DNA from: Bacteroidales bacterium
Lineage (GTDB): Bacteria > Bacteroidota > Bacteroidia > Bacteroidales > B18-G4
Direction: 5' to 3'
Length of the DNA stretch: 12,319 bases
Assembly: GCA_023132505.1 (NCBI GenBank)
Contig: JAGLYE010000023.1
Coordinates: 1 to 12,319 of the forward strand
The notes below the pieces were generated by a model, which was given only the letters and a program-made list of their open reading frames with translations, did not search any database and was not told the DNA's origin. The translations under genes were made by a program, and so were the position numbers. Positions 1 to 12,256 of the stretch are shown one piece after another. Position 1 is the stretch's first letter. Each line of letters starts with the position of its first letter.

Positions 1-717
1 ATGGATTATCCGGTTCACCTGGGTGTAACCGAAGCCGGGGAAGGAGAGGATGGCAGGATCAGGTCTGCAGCAGGCATAGGGCCATTACTGGCGATGGGTA
101 TTGGCGATACGATCAGGGTTTCGCTCACTGAGGACCCTGTGGCAGAGATCCCGGTGGCACAGAAGTTAAGGGATCATTATGCTGATATTAGGAGATTGGA
201 AAAACCTTCGATGCCATGGACTTCAGAAGGAAAGGTCAGGATCCCGGACTTGATAAAACTAACATATCCTGATCATGACTATGAGGAAATGGCAATAATT
301 GCAGCCGCAGAAATGTCTTCTCTTATCCTGAAAGCGCAGGGAAACAATTATCACATTTCGGGTGATTCCGGCAGACTCTATCCTAAGCTGGTACTCAATA
401 TACTGCAGGCTACCGGGGTACGGATCACCGATACAGAATATATCTCATGTCCGACCTGTGGCAGGACCACTTTTGATATTCAGACTGTACTGAAAGAGGT
501 TAAGCAGCATACCCGGGGATTGAAGAATGTCAAGATTGCCATAATGGGCTGTATTGTTAACGGGCCGGGCGAAATGGCCGACGCTGATTATGGTTATGTT
601 GGTGCAGGGAAAGGAAAAGTCACCCTTTACTATGCCGGTAAAGTTGTGAGAAAGAACATTCCTGAAGAGGATGCCCTGAAAGTACTGCTTGAGCTGATCA
701 GAAGCACACAACTATAG
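1..717 (+). CDS. ispG: IspG (4-hydroxy-3-methylbut-2-en-1-yl diphosphate synthase), C-terminal part
   Basis: IspG (GcpE) reductively converts methylerythritol cyclodiphosphate to HMBPP in the MEP isoprenoid pathway, using a [4Fe-4S] cluster in the cytoplasm. The visible 238 residues are the C-terminal part. They begin with a conserved TIM-barrel stretch (HLGVTEAG at residues 6-13, then [10 protein letters not shown] at 33-42) and end with the cluster-binding domain. The cluster ligands are visible: Cys150 and Cys153 in SCPTCGRT, Cys184 in [10 protein letters not shown], and Glu191. The segment between barrel and cluster domain is long, as in the large, about 600-residue Bacteroidota/plant-type IspG. 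The ATG at position 1 is almost certainly an internal Met, because the N-terminal half of the barrel is missing at the window edge. The stop (TAG, 715-717) overlaps the end of the convergent lipid-kinase gene. Confidence 0.95.
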
Positions 718-5291: not shown

Positions 5292-6758
5292 CTATTTTTT
5301 CCAGAATGCAGGGGAGAAAAGAATGAGCACGGTAAACAGTTCCAGGCGGCCAAGCAGCATGAGAAATGAGAGGAACCATTTCCCGCCATAAGGGATGAAA
5401 GCATAATTGCCTTCCGGGCCCACAGCACCGATACCTGGCCCGATATTTCCAATTGTTGCAGCCGTTGCTCCAATGGCAGTGGAGGCATCCAACCCAATCA
5501 GGGCCATCACGGTTGAGCCGATGATAAAGATGATGATATAGATAAGAAAGAAAGCCATTACCTTGAAGATGATATCCTGTGATACAACTTTACCGTTCAT
5601 CCTCACAGGAATGATGGCTTGCGGATGGATCAATCGCTTAAGTTCCAGCAAACTGTTTTTCAGCAATAGCAATTGCCTTACTACTTTAATACCACCTCCT
5701 GTAGATCCGGCCATCCCGCCAATGAACATCATAAGTATGATCAGGAACCAAATCATGCTTGGCCATTGCAGGTAGTTATCGGTAATATAGCCGGTAGTGG
5801 TGATTATGGATACCACCTGAAAAAAGGATGCCCGGAAAGCCTCTTCAAATGACATCCCATCCTTGTTAAGGGCCAGTACCAGGGTGATAATTAGAGTTCC
5901 AGCCAGAATAAGGTAAATGAACCAACGAAATTCCTCACTTTTCCATACCCTTCGAAGTTGTCCGTGCAGGGCAAAGTAATGCAGGGTAAAATTTGTCCCG
6001 GCAAGGATCATAAAAACAATGATCACATATTGTATGTATGGTGATGAGAAGGCTGCAATGCTTTCTGTATGAGTTGAAAAACCACCCGTGGCAACTGTGC
6101 CGAAAGTATGGCAAAGGGCATCGAACAGACTCATTCCGCCAAAAAGCAGTAATAGAGTTTCAACTACAGTGAAGATCAGATAGATCGCCCAAAGCCGTTT
6201 GGCTGTGGCTGCGATCTTCGGGTGGAGTTTATCTTTGGTAACGCCAGGCATCTCTGCCGCATAGAGCTGCATACCGCCAATGCCAAGAATGGGGAGTACT
6301 GCAACAGTAAATACGATGATGCCCATACCCCCGATCCAATGGGTCATGCTCCTCCAGAAGAGGATGCTCTTTGGTATGGACTCTATGTCAGTGAGGATAG
6401 TAGCCCCTGTCGTAGTAAATCCTGACATAGTCTCGAAAAATGCGTCAGTGAAATTAGAGATCACTCCGCTTAAGAGAAAGGGTAAAGTGCCGAAAAGGGA
6501 AATGATAATCCAGGTGACAGCTACTATCACATAACCTTCTTTCCTGCCAATGTTCTTGAGGTGCTTCCTGGTAGAAAACCATAAAATACCACCCGTAAGA
6601 ATGGTGATTAGCCCGGAATATAGTAGTGCAGGGTTTTCGAGTTCTCCATAATAAATGGAAAAGGGTAAACCGAGAAACATGAAAAACCCTTCGATCATAA
6701 GAAGGAAACCAATCACCTTGATGATCACCTTGATATTGATGCCTTTCCAGTTTTTCAT
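5292..6758 (-). CDS. trkH: TrkH-family potassium uptake channel subunit
   Basis: An integral inner-membrane K+ transporter of 488 residues, the usual length for TrkH/KtrB. The four-fold repeated pore architecture is visible. Each repeat has a selectivity-filter segment: SGFTTTGAT (112-120), GTVATGGFSTH (220-230), TTTGYIT (320-326) and TIGNIGPG (435-442). Other family landmarks are RSMTHWIGGMGI (136-147), GGMAGSTGGGIKVVR (347-361), which includes the gating region after the third pore, and LGRLELFTVLILF (469-481) in the last helix. It is translated after trkA with a 4-nt ATGA overlap, which suggests translational coupling of the channel and its cytoplasmic gating ring. The two gene products together take up K+ driven by the membrane potential or ion gradients. 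Confidence 0.97.
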   Translation of the reverse strand: MKNWKGINIKVIIKVIGFLLMIEGFFMFLGLPFSIYYGELENPALLYSGLITILTGGILWFSTRKHLKNIGRKEGYVIVAVTWIIISLFGTLPFLLSGVISNFTDAFFETMSGFTTTGATILTDIESIPKSILFWRSMTHWIGGMGIIVFTVAVLPILGIGGMQLYAAEMPGVTKDKLHPKIAATAKRLWAIYLIFTVVETLLLLFGGMSLFDALCHTFGTVATGGFSTHTESIAAFSSPYIQYVIIVFMILAGTNFTLHYFALHGQLRRVWKSEEFRWFIYLILAGTLIITLVLALNKDGMSFEEAFRASFFQVVSIITTTGYITDNYLQWPSMIWFLIILMMFIGGMAGSTGGGIKVVRQLLLLKNSLLELKRLIHPQAIIPVRMNGKVVSQDIIFKVMAFFLIYIIIFIIGSTVMALIGLDASTAIGATAATIGNIGPGIGAVGPEGNYAFIPYGGKWFLSFLMLLGRLELFTVLILFSPAFWKK

Positions 6759-8104
6759 TTGTTGTTGAACAGTTTATCTACCTTGTGGATGGCATCAGGC
6801 ATGCTGAACACCACTACCTTGTCGCCTTCTTCTATTTGGAAGTCGCCCACTGCGATATAGCTGTCATCACCACGGATAATACCGCCAATGATTGCTCCTT
6901 TAGGCACATTCAGATCCCTGATAGGCTTCCTTGTGACAGCACTGTGTGGATTGGCTACCAGCTCCATTACCTCAGCATTGATACCACTTAAGCATTTGAT
7001 GGAAGTGACTTCCGCATGCATTGTAAACTTCACAATATAGCTGGCAGTGCTAAGCTTTTTATTGATGATGGTGTCAATGCCGATATTTTGGGAGATGTCG
7101 ATATAATCGATATTCTCAACGAGGGCGATGGTACGCTTAACGCCGAATTTACGGGCGTGCAGACAGGCCAGAATATTTGTTTCCGAGCTGTCGGTAACTG
7201 CTATAAAAGCATCCATGCCACGGATATCCTCATCTTCCATCAATTGTATGTCGCGGGCGTCACCATTGATCACCAGGGTATGCTCCAGCTGATTTGCAAG
7301 ATGAAGGCTCTTTTCCTTATTCTTTTCGAAAAGTTTTATGTGTAGGGAGTTTTCGAGCTTCCGTGCGGTTGTACGTCCAACACGACCCCCGCCCATGATC
7401 ATCACGTTCCTGATGTAAATCTTTTGTTTGCCGCCGAGCTTGAGCAAGTCATCTATTCCCCCGGGTTTTGTGATCACATACGACAAATCATTTACCAGGA
7501 ACTGATCATCCCCTTTCGGGATGATGGTATTTGAATCCCGGTGGATGGCTACGGCACGGAAATCAAGATGCGGATACATGGCAACAATATCATTCAGGCT
7601 TTTATTCACCACAGGGGCATTTTCTTCAAGCTTGATCAGAAAAAGAGAAAGCTTTCCCCCTGAAAAATCAAAGACTTCGGTTGCTGCCGACTGGCTGAGC
7701 AGGTCAGCGATTTCCTTGGAAACAATATCCTCCGGACAGATTAATGCATCAACACCCATGTTTTTAAATCGTTCTTTATTTTCCGGATGAAGGTATTCGA
7801 GGTTATTGATCCTGGCTATAGTTTTCTTTGCGCCAAGTTGTTTGCCGAGGGCTGCAGTGATCAGGTTGATACGCTCATCATGAAGCACCGAGATAAGCAG
7901 GTCGGCCTTCTTTACATTGGCATTTTTCAAAACCTCTATTGAGGTTGAATCCCCCGTGATCGCCATAAGGTCGGTATGGGCCTCAACCATCTTGATCATG
8001 TCCTCGTGTGGGTCAACGATAGTAATATTCTGGTTTTCAAGTGAAGAAAGCTCTTGAGCAAGGTGTAATCCTACCTCTCCGTCGCCTGCGATTACTATAT
8101 TCAT
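6755..8104 (-). CDS. trkA: TrkA potassium-channel regulatory subunit (two RCK/KTN domains)
   Basis: A cytoplasmic NAD(H)/nucleotide-binding regulator that forms a ring under TrkH and gates it. The 449 residues contain two tandem KTN_NAD-binding units: GDGEVG (7-12) with the acidic strand end IVDP (29-32), and GGGRVG (238-243) with FEKN (259-262). Each is followed by a TrkA_C-type domain; the second includes GAIIGGIIRGDD (403-414) and FQIEEGDKVVVFS (422-434). The length fits E. coli-type duplicated TrkA. It begins the trkAH pair, and its TGA overlaps the trkH ATG. The 5' flank is the decayed omega-amidase gene, so its original promoter context has been remodelled. I saw no exact TAnnTTTG box just upstream, only near-matches in the AT-rich 8105-8160 segment. 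Confidence 0.97.
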   Translation of the reverse strand: MNIVIAGDGEVGLHLAQELSSLENQNITIVDPHEDMIKMVEAHTDLMAITGDSTSIEVLKNANVKKADLLISVLHDERINLITAALGKQLGAKKTIARINNLEYLHPENKERFKNMGVDALICPEDIVSKEIADLLSQSAATEVFDFSGGKLSLFLIKLEENAPVVNKSLNDIVAMYPHLDFRAVAIHRDSNTIIPKGDDQFLVNDLSYVITKPGGIDDLLKLGGKQKIYIRNVMIMGGGRVGRTTARKLENSLHIKLFEKNKEKSLHLANQLEHTLVINGDARDIQLMEDEDIRGMDAFIAVTDSSETNILACLHARKFGVKRTIALVENIDYIDISQNIGIDTIINKKLSTASYIVKFTMHAEVTSIKCLSGINAEVMELVANPHSAVTRKPIRDLNVPKGAIIGGIIRGDDSYIAVGDFQIEEGDKVVVFSMPDAIHKVDKLFNNK

Positions 8105-8159
8105 GATTTGATTTTAAAACTGCTGCCAAATTACTACAAACAAATCTTAAAAAGCAAGT

Positions 8160-8495
8160 GTATAAGGTAAATCTTGCATTGTTTGGAAATTGTTTAGTGA
8201 ATATCAAACCTATCCCGATCCTGTTCATACCTACCACATATGCCATGTTCTCTATGGCCCTGCCGGTGATTAGCGATGTCCAGGCAAGCGAGCGTATGAC
8301 AGGCCAAACTGAAAAATGCAGATGTCATCACCCATCCTGAAAAGATGTTTTTTGTCATAGTACTGATAATTGCTATCAGGATGCATCAATACTAATCTGT
8401 TGAAATACTTATCATTTCCCAAAGTTTTCGAGGTTGGCCGGGGTGTCTTCCCAGATGAGGCTTGATTGAACAAGCGTAATGGTCAGATCTTGCAT
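8160..8495 (-). pseudogene. Omega-amidase (YafV/NIT2-like nitrilase family) pseudogene with internal deletions
   Basis: This gap holds the wreck of a carbon-nitrogen hydrolase. Block A starts at an ATG (8495-8493) overlapping the aminotransferase stop. It encodes MQDLTITLVQSSLIWED followed by TPANLENF, the family N-terminus, then meets an in-frame TGA at 8414-8412. Block B (about 8419-8324, another frame) reads NDKYFNRLVLMHPDSN then YDKKHLFRMGDD, the segment with the catalytic Lys. Block C (about 8315-8208, frame of block A) reads SVWPVIRSLAWTSLITG then RAIENMAYVVGMNRIG, the region after the catalytic Cys. A possible C-terminal remnant (TKQFPNNARFTL, about 8198-8163) follows. Compared with YafV (about 256 residues), roughly 40-50 codons are missing at each junction, including the catalytic Glu (LPEM) and Cys (CYDLRFP) segments. 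Only about 95-105 codons remain. Family and order of blocks are clear by eye; exact breakpoints are approximate. A functional protein is very unlikely. Confidence 0.88.
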
Positions 8496-9640
8496 AGAAT
8501 ATTGGCAGCTTTATCAAGAGTTTCCTCCTTTTTGGCAAAACAAAGGCGAAGAACCCTGTTTTCATCTCCTGAATGATAAAATGGCGATACCGGGATCGTA
8601 CCAATACCATACTCCTTTATTAATCGTGTGGCAAAATCCATATCGTTTTCATCTGATATGTTGCTGTAATCTAACAACTGGAAATAAGTCCCGCGGCAGG
8701 TGATGATCTTGAAACGCGAACTGCTAATGCCATCAACGAAATAATCCCGTTTCTTCTGATAGAAATTGTGAAGACCACGATAGTTTTCATCATCATCCAA
8801 ATAATCAGCAATGGCATGCTGTACCGGTGTATTGCATGCAAATACGATAAATTGGTGCGACTTGCGGAATTCTTTCATCAGGTTTTCGGGGGCAAGCACG
8901 TATCCCATCTTCCAGCCCGTGGCATGAAAAGTCTTCCCAAAGGAGCCTGTTACAAAACTTTTTTCGGCCAGCTCAGGATATTTGCAGACACTTTCGTGAG
9001 GCTGATCGTCATAGATCAGGTGTTCGTAAACCTCATCGCTGAGCACCACGATGTCAGTTTTCTTGATCAGGTGTTGGAGGGCCAGCAGGTCTTTTTCCCG
9101 GAGAATGCAGCCTGTTGGGTTATGGGGACTGTTAATAATGATCATCCGTGTGCGGTGGGTAACCATTCGTGAGACCTCAGCCCATTTTATGGTATAATCA
9201 GGGGGCTCCATCCTGGCATATTTCACAATACCGCCGCAAAGTTGTACGGCGGGGGCATAACTATCATAGGCCGGCTCAAAAATGATCACTTCATCATCAT
9301 CCCTTACCATGCATGCTATGGCAGCATAGATACCCTGGGTAGCGCCCGCCGTGATATTAATTTCTTTGTCGGGGTCATATTTAATCTTATACGTCTTTTC
9401 AATTTTTTCCGAGATACGCTTTCTCAGCAAAGGAACCCCTGTCATAGGGGCGTACTGGTTATAGCCCTTTTTCATGTAATAGCTGACGAGGTCTATCAAC
9501 TTAGGGGAAACTTCGAAATCAGGGAAACCCTGTGAGAGGTTGATGGCATTGTGCTCATTGGCCAGTTGCGACATCACCGCAAATATTGACGTTCCGGTGC
9601 GGGGTAGTTTCGATTTTATGATGCCGGGGAATTTTGTCAT
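8483..9640 (-). CDS. Class I/II PLP aminotransferase, methionine/kynurenine type (YbdL/MtnE-like)
   Basis: A fold-type I PLP aminotransferase of 385 residues, full length. INLSQGFPDF (33-42) is the N-terminal signature of the methionine/kynurenine/glutamine aminotransferase group. Further motifs are NQYAPMTG (61-68), ITAGATQG (96-103), NSPHNPTG (170-177) with the conserved Asn, SDEVYEHL (201-208) with the PLP-ring Asp202 and Tyr205, and SFGKTFHATGWKMGY (233-247) with the Schiff-base Lys236. Arg365 in VLRLCF would bind the substrate carboxylate. Enzymes of this group transfer the amino group from methionine or aromatic amino acids (often with glutamine) to keto acids. They are commonly paired with an omega-amidase, and the ruin of one overlaps the end of this gene. 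Exact substrate is not determined from sequence. The gene diverges from pgk. Confidence 0.93.
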   Translation of the reverse strand: MTKFPGIIKSKLPRTGTSIFAVMSQLANEHNAINLSQGFPDFEVSPKLIDLVSYYMKKGYNQYAPMTGVPLLRKRISEKIEKTYKIKYDPDKEINITAGATQGIYAAIACMVRDDDEVIIFEPAYDSYAPAVQLCGGIVKYARMEPPDYTIKWAEVSRMVTHRTRMIIINSPHNPTGCILREKDLLALQHLIKKTDIVVLSDEVYEHLIYDDQPHESVCKYPELAEKSFVTGSFGKTFHATGWKMGYVLAPENLMKEFRKSHQFIVFACNTPVQHAIADYLDDDENYRGLHNFYQKKRDYFVDGISSSRFKIITCRGTYFQLLDYSNISDENDMDFATRLIKEYGIGTIPVSPFYHSGDENRVLRLCFAKKEETLDKAANILCKI

Positions 9641-10977: not shown

Positions 10978-11826
10978 TTAGGTTGTGCCGAATTCTTTGT
11001 GCTTGCTTTTTAAGTCCGTGAATACATTACCGGATTCCTGCTCCTTGATGAACTCAACCATCAAATGCCCGCTTATAAGTATTTTCGGGTTTATTGAAAG
11101 CTTATAGATCTCCCGGTAGACGGCTTTTTTAGTAGCATCGTCATAATCCTTGTTTTTTCTCAGGTTCTTTTTGTAGGTAATCCAGTTGGAGAGTAAGATG
11201 AACGGATAAAATAGGGGCAACAGGAACAGGGAAGTGGTCTTTGCCCTGGTAAAGTGGAAAGCTTTCATTTTAAATCCACTTAACTTACCCAGCGCACGCA
11301 GCTTTTGAATGCCGATCAGAAAAATATGCCCGAAGTATATTTCACTGCTGATGTGTTGTTGCGACATCCAGATACTGTCGAGTTCATTCGGGGGCATGGT
11401 GGAGTTAAATCGTTCACTTTCTGAAAGGAGGTAGCTTAATTTCGAACGAAGGTTTGAGTAATTTGGTGTTGTGATGAGGAGCAGTCCATCCGGCTTAAGC
11501 ACCCTGTTAAATTCCTTGAAAGCACCAAACTGATCACTGAAATGCTCAATTCCTTCCTGACAAATGAGCCCGTCAGCGGCATGATCTTCCAATGGAAGCC
11601 CTGATGTGATTGTGGCCCTTTTGCACTTGATATCGTCCAGCTCAAAATACTCCGGGAACAGGTCGAAGGGAATGGGGTCAGCCCCCACCTCTTTCAGAAG
11701 TTTTGATGTTACCCCGTTACCGGCCGGAAAATCAATTATCTTTTTGCCTTTGAACAGATTGGCATTGTTCAGCAGGTATTGCTTCACGTGGTACTTAATA
11801 CTCCTGGGATTATCTTCGTATTTCAT
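10978..11826 (-). CDS. Class I SAM-dependent methyltransferase (Methyltransf_11-like)
   Basis: A 282-residue protein with a Rossmann-type methyltransferase core. Motif I is IDFPAGNGVTSKLL (31-44), a GxGxxT variant that binds S-adenosylmethionine; the acidic motif II region lies around PFDLFPEYF (53-61). GLICQEGIEHFSD (86-98) and the following FNRVLKPDGLLLITTPNYSN (106-125) are the post-I and post-III motifs typical of the UbiE/Methyltransf_11 group. A hydrophobic stretch at about 198-216 (SLFLLPLFYPFILLSNW) could anchor or associate it with the membrane. Related proteins are common in polysaccharide or lipid loci, but there is no adjacent pathway gene here and the substrate is unknown. It is a lone minus-strand gene converging on pgk. 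The start ATG is at 11826, and no exact -7 box was seen upstream. Confidence 0.85.
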   Translation of the reverse strand: MKYEDNPRSIKYHVKQYLLNNANLFKGKKIIDFPAGNGVTSKLLKEVGADPIPFDLFPEYFELDDIKCKRATITSGLPLEDHAADGLICQEGIEHFSDQFGAFKEFNRVLKPDGLLLITTPNYSNLRSKLSYLLSESERFNSTMPPNELDSIWMSQQHISSEIYFGHIFLIGIQKLRALGKLSGFKMKAFHFTRAKTTSLFLLPLFYPFILLSNWITYKKNLRKNKDYDDATKKAVYREIYKLSINPKILISGHLMVEFIKEQESGNVFTDLKSKHKEFGTT

Positions 11827-11956: not shown

Positions 11957-12017
11957 CTTCCCTTCCTCCTTTTGCCCTCTTCCTTATGCCTTATGCCTTC
12001 TTCCTTCTGCCCTTTTC
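11957..12017. repeat. Pyrimidine-rich degenerate microrepeat tract
   Basis: About 60 bp of almost pure pyrimidine on the plus strand, built from variations of cttcctt and ccttatg (for example cttatgccttatgccttctt at 11984-12003). The other strand reads as GAAGGAAGAAGG-type purine repeats. The tract ends against the cccgggtccc at 12017-12026. Confidence 0.6.
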
Positions 12018-12088
12018 CCGGGTCCCATAGAGATCTGACGTTGATAACTTGATGGATAGAGGAACACAAATGCGCCCTGTAGGGACGC
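12018..12088. repeat. Putative dispersed short element interrupting the ORF6N gene
   Basis: This stretch begins with ccgggtcccatagagatctg, continues through gttgataacttgatggatag and ends in the small hairpin gcgccctgtagggacgc (12072-12088; arms gcgccct and agggacgc with one unpaired base). ORF6N similarity stops exactly at its right edge (12089). Its look matches short dispersed intergenic elements that I associate with Bacteroidota genomes; that is pattern memory, not a search. Only one copy is in this window, so repetitiveness is not demonstrated here. Confidence 0.4.
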
Positions 12089-12256
12089 AACAATCTTTTC
12101 AATTTCTTCATCTGTTAGCTTAAACATAAAATTGACTGGGAATCGGCTTATGTTTCTATTAACCTGCTCGTTCAATCGTTTAGTTTTTACCCCATACAAA
12201 TCAGCAAGGTCAGCATCTAGCATTATCTTTTGTCCACGAATATCAAATATCGGATA
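12089..12256 (-). pseudogene. ORF6N-domain protein remnant (N-terminal DNA-binding domain only)
   Basis: On the minus strand, 12244-12089 encode an ORF6N domain: DIRGQKIMLDADLADLYGV, then KTKRLNEQVNRNISRFPVNF and MFKLTDEEIEKIV. ORF6N proteins are DNA-binding, phage-derived regulators, common as single genes in Bacteroidota, where the conserved start is around IRGQKVMLDxDLAxLYGV. Here the frame has a TGA at 12259-12257, just upstream of the conserved IRGQ, and the only ATG (12223) lies inside the domain. Downstream, similarity ends abruptly at 12089, where a hairpin-containing element begins, and the frame runs through unrelated repeat DNA to a stop at 11984. Both ends are therefore damaged. 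The usual continuation (a LPYAFTEQG-like segment and C-terminal region) is absent. I call it a fragment rather than a working gene. Confidence 0.75.

Follow-up and report, generated by a model that had tools for sequence, protein, structure and literature searches.

Probable unitary pseudogene of a YafV/Nit2-type omega-amidase between an aminotransferase gene and trkA in a Bacteroidales bacterium

Unitary pseudogenes eroded by deletions are a known kind in bacteria. The gene concerned here belongs to a metabolic pair that has been described before. According to PMC6302742, the product of glutamine transamination is 2-ketoglutaramate, a compound that may cyclise; by removing it, omega-amidases make the transamination irreversible. 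YafV is listed as an omega-amidase in the methionine salvage pathway in PMC3223725. The stretch of DNA analysed in this work (the window, 12,319 nt from a Bacteroidales bacterium) carries trkA at 6755-8104 and a gene for a methionine-type (YbdL-like) aminotransferase at 8483-9640, both on the minus strand and separated by a gap of 378 bp. The initial annotation had claimed that this gap holds no intact gene, and the ORF listing bears this out: the relic is not spanned by any ORF of at least 60 aa. With high confidence, positions 8194-8495 (minus strand) are assigned to a unitary pseudogene of a YafV/Nit2-type omega-amidase gene, lost after the split from G001, the nearest relative.

Both flanking genes are intact. 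The aminotransferase, whose gene normally precedes the lost one as its partner, scored 578.4 bits with NCBIfam model NF006569 (cut-off 420), matched YbdL (PDB 1u08) with E=4.1e-121 and could be aligned over its full length with three genomes of the same genus. The downstream neighbour trkA scored 533.8 bits with NF007038 (cut-off 374) and matched G001 over its full length and G002 and G003 over 447 of 449 residues. The aminotransferase served as query in a search of 60 genomes, among them the own one, and this gave the three same-genus genomes; it is 91, 80 and 78 % identical to its counterparts in G001, G002 and G003, respectively. The initial annotation had pointed to alignment with an intact locus of close relatives as a means of mapping each deletion, and such loci were found: in all three genomes an intact amidase gene (789 nt and a stop codon) stands between the aminotransferase gene and trkA, its ATG overlapping the stop of the former, so that an intact orthologue occupies the place matching that of the relic, and each deletion could be mapped. 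The orthologues of G001, G002 and G003 reached 280.9, 272.4 and 260.9 bits with NF007757 (PRK10438, amidohydrolase; cut-off 249), a model which we take to correspond to YafV. The closest solved structure by sequence to the G001 protein (P0001) is PDB 2e11, matched over residues 1-260 with E=7.2e-67. The amidase is also intact, with 50-53 % identity, in four of the five genomes of the same family (G004, G006, G007 and G008), whereas G005, the fifth, yielded no closer matches than a distant aminotransferase with E 8.6e-35 and a nitrilase, likewise distant, with 85.8 bits.

A search of the own genome with P0001 recovered three pieces in the gap: block A (8415-8495, residues 1-27, E=6.3e-5, 70 % amino acid identity), block B (8309-8410, residues 90-123, E=2.5e-9, 59 %) and block C (8214-8324, residues 166-202, E=6.3e-11, 65 %). 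Blocks B and C were each also matched on their own to PDB 2e11, at residues 91-117 and 175-205, in both cases with E=2.3e-5. The three nitrilase-family blocks proposed initially from the letters alone were thus recovered on the minus strand, in the same order and at about the same places, and all three gave the nitrilase-family matches by which the proposal was to be checked. In a tblastn control with the 390-nt stretch 8105-8494 the real pieces scored 57.0, 51.2 and 39.3 bits; 232 of 1000 dinucleotide shuffles gave any hit at all and the best of them reached 22.3 bits, so the matches of the fragments are not due to chance. Pfam scans of the single blocks gave no match for A and B and only E=0.1 for C because the pieces are too short for the Pfam model. 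The window pieces scored 35.0 and 21.6 bits with NF007757, below the cut-off that the intact G001 orthologue passes.

The anatomy of the relic was established from a MAFFT alignment with the three intact same-genus genes, and losses were measured against G001. The relic retains 302 of 792 bp, with start and stop codons present; the 490 bp lost (62 %) are accounted for by three deletions of 182, 141 and 166 bp and one single-base loss. All its parts are read on the minus strand. Block A (8415-8495) comprises the start codon and codons 1-27, MQDLTITLVQSSLIWEDTPANLENF..., and its first bases overlap the aminotransferase stop. Deletion 1 (junction 8414-8415) removed about 182 bp, the exact base being uncertain by a few nt, took codons 28-88 including Glu43 and shifts the frame. 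Block B (8307-8414, codons 88-124) contains the Lys109 motif YYDKKHLFRMGD, then a frame-shifting 1-nt loss between 8325 and 8324 in codon 118, and then HLHF. Deletion 2 (junction 8306-8307) took 141 bp in frame, codons 125-171 including Cys143. It is followed by block C (8218-8306, codons 172-200, WPVIRSLAWTSLITGRAIENMAYVVGMNR), by the frame-shifting deletion 3 (junction 8217-8218; 166 bp, codons 201-256) and by block D (8194-8217), which encodes the C-terminus ...DRFDIH and the TAA stop in a third frame. Block D, which is too short to be scored separately, was placed by the alignment with the three intact genes; it had been overlooked in the initial inventory, which was right about the other three blocks, and its presence with the stop means that the relic holds both original ends. 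As had been claimed, translation of the minus strand puts blocks A and C in one frame and B in another; the change between B and C results from the 1-nt loss in codon 118, since deletion 2 is in frame. With a reference, G001, that shares only about 64-78 % identity with the blocks, each junction can be placed only to within a few bases.

With four blocks in three frames the reading frame is disrupted and a full product is impossible. We take Glu, Lys and Cys to be the catalytic residues of the nitrilase family, here Glu43, Lys109 and Cys143. The first observation that the segments bearing Glu and Cys are missing and the Lys block is kept agrees with the alignment, and without Glu43 and Cys143 the window copy does not qualify as a functional YafV/Nit2-type omega-amidase. 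Codon 118, the site of the 1-nt loss, encodes Glu, which we presume may be a further active-site residue. In each of the three intact genes TGG flanks the segment of deletion 3 on both sides; around deletion 2, CTGG lies across both edges in G001, and the left edge is without it in G002 and G003. These hints at junctions 2 and 3 are suggestive only, but the deletions might have arisen by slippage between short repeats.

The fragments could still be useful to the cell if a short peptide, such as that of the 67-aa TTG-start ORF at 8270-8473, or an RNA had been retained. We consider this very improbable. The fragments do keep the invariant residues, which recent loss explains as well; they are spread over three frames, the 67-aa ORF starts outside the old frame and found no relatives in the protein search, and no match to Rfam at gathering scores was obtained in the window. 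The conservation behind the first of these points was assessed against the other intact proteins, 63 in number. At positions invariant in these proteins the relic retains 16 of 16 residues, and at positions conserved in at least 97 % of them 18 of 18. At positions conserved in at least 90 % it differs at 3 of 23 (W97L, G102S and A186G), the 63 proteins differing there at 0.3 on average and at 2 at most; A186G is common to G002 and G003 and is therefore not decay. Of the 35 positions conserved in at least 80 %, 5 are changed in the relic and 4 in P0001; among the 63 proteins the mean is 2.0 and the maximum 6. With all 16 invariant residues retained, point decay in the blocks is slight, which supports the earlier suggestion that the gene was lost through deletions rather than through point decay.

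Differences from the G002 gene in the retained blocks number 25, 20 and 47 at the first, second and third codon positions of the relic, respectively, and are about equally numerous in the intact G001 gene, with 24, 16 and 53. When changes were polarised, the window branch showed 7, 10 and 10 in the relic, the G001 branch 5, 6 and 12 in the same blocks, and the window aminotransferase 12, 6 and 56. The pattern of the relic did not differ significantly from that of the G001 amidase (Fisher p=0.39) and differed from that of the window aminotransferase (Fisher p=0.0007). When these counts were used for dating, the neutral share of the branch had a bootstrap interval that includes zero, scaled or unscaled, and reaches about 0.8. 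The loss had also been called fairly recent, and this holds only in so far as it postdates the split from G001; the substitution patterns do not date it within that branch. As judged from the aligned sequences, the loss of the omega-amidase gene after the split from G001 is evidently deletion-driven.

Fragments with few point changes, parted by deletions, might equally result from faulty assembly, and it was considered whether the chromosome has an intact gene whose pieces were misjoined in the metagenome assembly. The evidence comes from one draft assembly in 352 contigs. A second assembly showing these fragments was not found, and the 67-aa ORF over block B had no relative in the protein collection, where candidates were limited to proteins between 0.55 and 1.75 times as long. 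Such an artefact, however, needs three independent misjoins and the loss of a base within one gene, and the own assembly contains no second copy of the stretch. The surroundings also speak against it: when ten window genes were compared with five same-genus loci, eight neighbours (diacylglycerol-kinase-like, O-antigen-ligase-like, GT9, GT2, trkH, trkA, aminotransferase and pgk) matched G001 or G003 at or near full length with at most one gap position per match. The other apparent internal loss in the window, an ispG gene shorter than that of G003, was rejected as a sign of faulty assembly: the short form recurs in G001, with 94 % identity over residues 1-236, so this loss is real. We give an assembly artefact only a small chance; the deletions are unlikely to be an assembly error and are most probably present in the real chromosome.

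Several further observations concern the ispG gene and the rest of the window. Compared with the IspG (GcpE) part at window positions 1-717, the G003 protein is about 117 residues longer internally (between 16894 and 16506 of L149). The short IspG of G001 is a 476-aa open frame; G009 and G016 also give unbroken matches, with open frames of 473 and 477 aa, and in most of the 26 genomes searched the IspG open frames are of about 500-650 aa. Shortening of the IspG insert may have happened more than once. The ispG genes of G002 and G013 contain an in-frame stop. The methyltransferase gene at 10978-11826 had no match in the five same-genus loci compared. Near the contig end, a truncated gene with an ORF6N domain (11984-12223; PF10543, 65.7 bits) lies beside low-complexity sequence, CTTCCTT/GCCTTATGCC and then CAACCCTCAACC at the contig end; this region is possibly a remnant of a mobile element or phage.

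Between the relic and trkA lies the trkA leader (8105-8193, minus strand), a non-coding spacer of 89 nt in G001, 92 nt in G003 and 192 nt in G002, whose trkA-proximal part is conserved. It is 89-91 % identical to G001 over 8181-8123, and the identity is 96 % over 8122-8075, a piece that extends 30 nt into trkA; positions 8193-8182 fall within an alignment piece of 64 % identity. The trkA-proximal leader (8105-8181; 89-96 % to G001) is thus more conserved than the adjoining relic (64-78 %). It also has TTTG and TATTAATTTG-like motifs, which in our view resemble the Bacteroidota promoter consensus. A putative promoter located there may have limited the deletions on that side.

Decay of the genome as a whole was considered and found no support. 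The coding fraction, a crude ORF count on stretches unmatched between the genomes, was 0.923 for 165,530 own bases (20 contig stretches together with the window); the 20 stretches each of G001 (119,004 bases) and G003 (172,261 bases) gave 0.926 and 0.868. Gaps of at least 300 nt occurred 4.8 times per 100 kb in the own genome, about twice as often as in G001 (2.5), and 7.5 times in G003. Given the normal coding density of the sample and the eight neighbours at or near full length, the loss looks local.

No intact copy of the gene was found elsewhere in the 75.7%-complete own assembly by searches with P0001, the family model and the stretch itself. The only other CN_hydrolase match of this genome is C291, a protein of 297 aa with 24 % identity to P0001 and 69.3 bits with NF007757, far below the cut-off of 249, that is, a distant nitrilase paralogue. 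Given the completeness of the assembly, a second omega-amidase copy may exist. Of the 14 control genomes just 2 reach the NF007757 cut-off, so some other type of omega-amidase that scores below it, C291 included, may exist as well. The cell would otherwise lack omega-amidase activity. The course of events proposed here starts from an omega-amidase gene that would once have been co-oriented with the aminotransferase gene and overlapped its stop; the internal deletions and the single-base loss would then have left the four fragments. Alpha-ketoglutaramate, if the aminotransferase makes it from glutamine, would have to be tolerated, made in small amounts or cleared otherwise. It is conceivable, but in our estimate rather doubtful, that the aminotransferase works here without the omega-amidase and that the repair step is dispensable, either because glutamine is not used or because alpha-ketoglutaramate is cleared by, for example, C291.

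The association of the two genes was surveyed in 80 loci of named genomes, the best 80 of 152, with the three same-genus ones included; four with less than 850 bases downstream were dropped and 76 were testable. Among these best-matching loci an amidase gene is present within 250 nt and on the same strand as the aminotransferase gene in 63 of 76, with the same ATG/stop overlap in 39 of the 63. trkA comes next in 15 of these 63 loci, not every one of which reaches far enough. The remaining 13 testable loci have no adjacent amidase. Fifteen genomes without an adjacent amidase, some of which may be of the same species, were searched further (11 of the 13 and four relatives from the aminotransferase search), and 11 of them gave a non-adjacent amidase match with 41-51 % identity over most of the protein; that of G070 may lie a few kb downstream. 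G024 (96 % complete) and G064 gave no match to the intact amidase or to the family model, and G068 (an Ignavibacterium chromosome) only a weak distant one, with 37.5 and 28.7 bits for the family model. Subject to completeness, aminotransferases without a detectable omega-amidase may therefore occur elsewhere, and uncoupling of the pair may recur.

Two loci met in the survey deserve a comment. In G060, the last of the fifteen genomes searched further, a frame break near codon 118-121 was considered as a shared frameshift site and rejected: an N and a short duplication stand at the join, to which the split is attributed as an assembly join. At this locus of another Bacteroidota assembly (L206, G060:C223) the single N and the duplicated stretch split an otherwise intact omega-amidase, which could be annotated as a frameshift. 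At L049 the trkA downstream of the aminotransferase matches in three pieces (74, 60 and 36 %), unlike at other loci.

The relic offers a clean snapshot of gene loss, with start and stop left, all losses on one branch and three intact same-genus copies for mapping. It may mark the natural loss of a conserved metabolite-repair partner from a pair whose other enzyme, the one that makes such repair necessary, is still intact; apart from this possible uncoupling of the pair it represents ordinary genome evolution. The enzyme and the kind of gene pair are both already known, and the surprise for a specialist is low.

Compared with known systems, the locus resembles that of YafV/Nit2-type omega-amidases (NF007757/PRK10438) in that the orthologues of the three same-genus genomes pass the cut-off of the model and the fragments match in order, but the window copy is broken. 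As for the coupling of glutamine-type transaminase and omega-amidase that PMC6302742 treats in connection with methionine salvage, the survey likewise finds a methionine-type aminotransferase beside an omega-amidase gene in most of the testable loci, whereas here the second gene is lost and the first is intact, its use of glutamine being putative. The likeness to unitary bacterial pseudogenes lies in an orthologue that is intact in sister genomes and broken here, mainly by deletions; the gene concerned is the only point of difference, and the sampled part of the genome is compact (0.923 coding). The gene loss is thus a well-preserved yet ordinary case of a pseudogene in a conserved gene pair.
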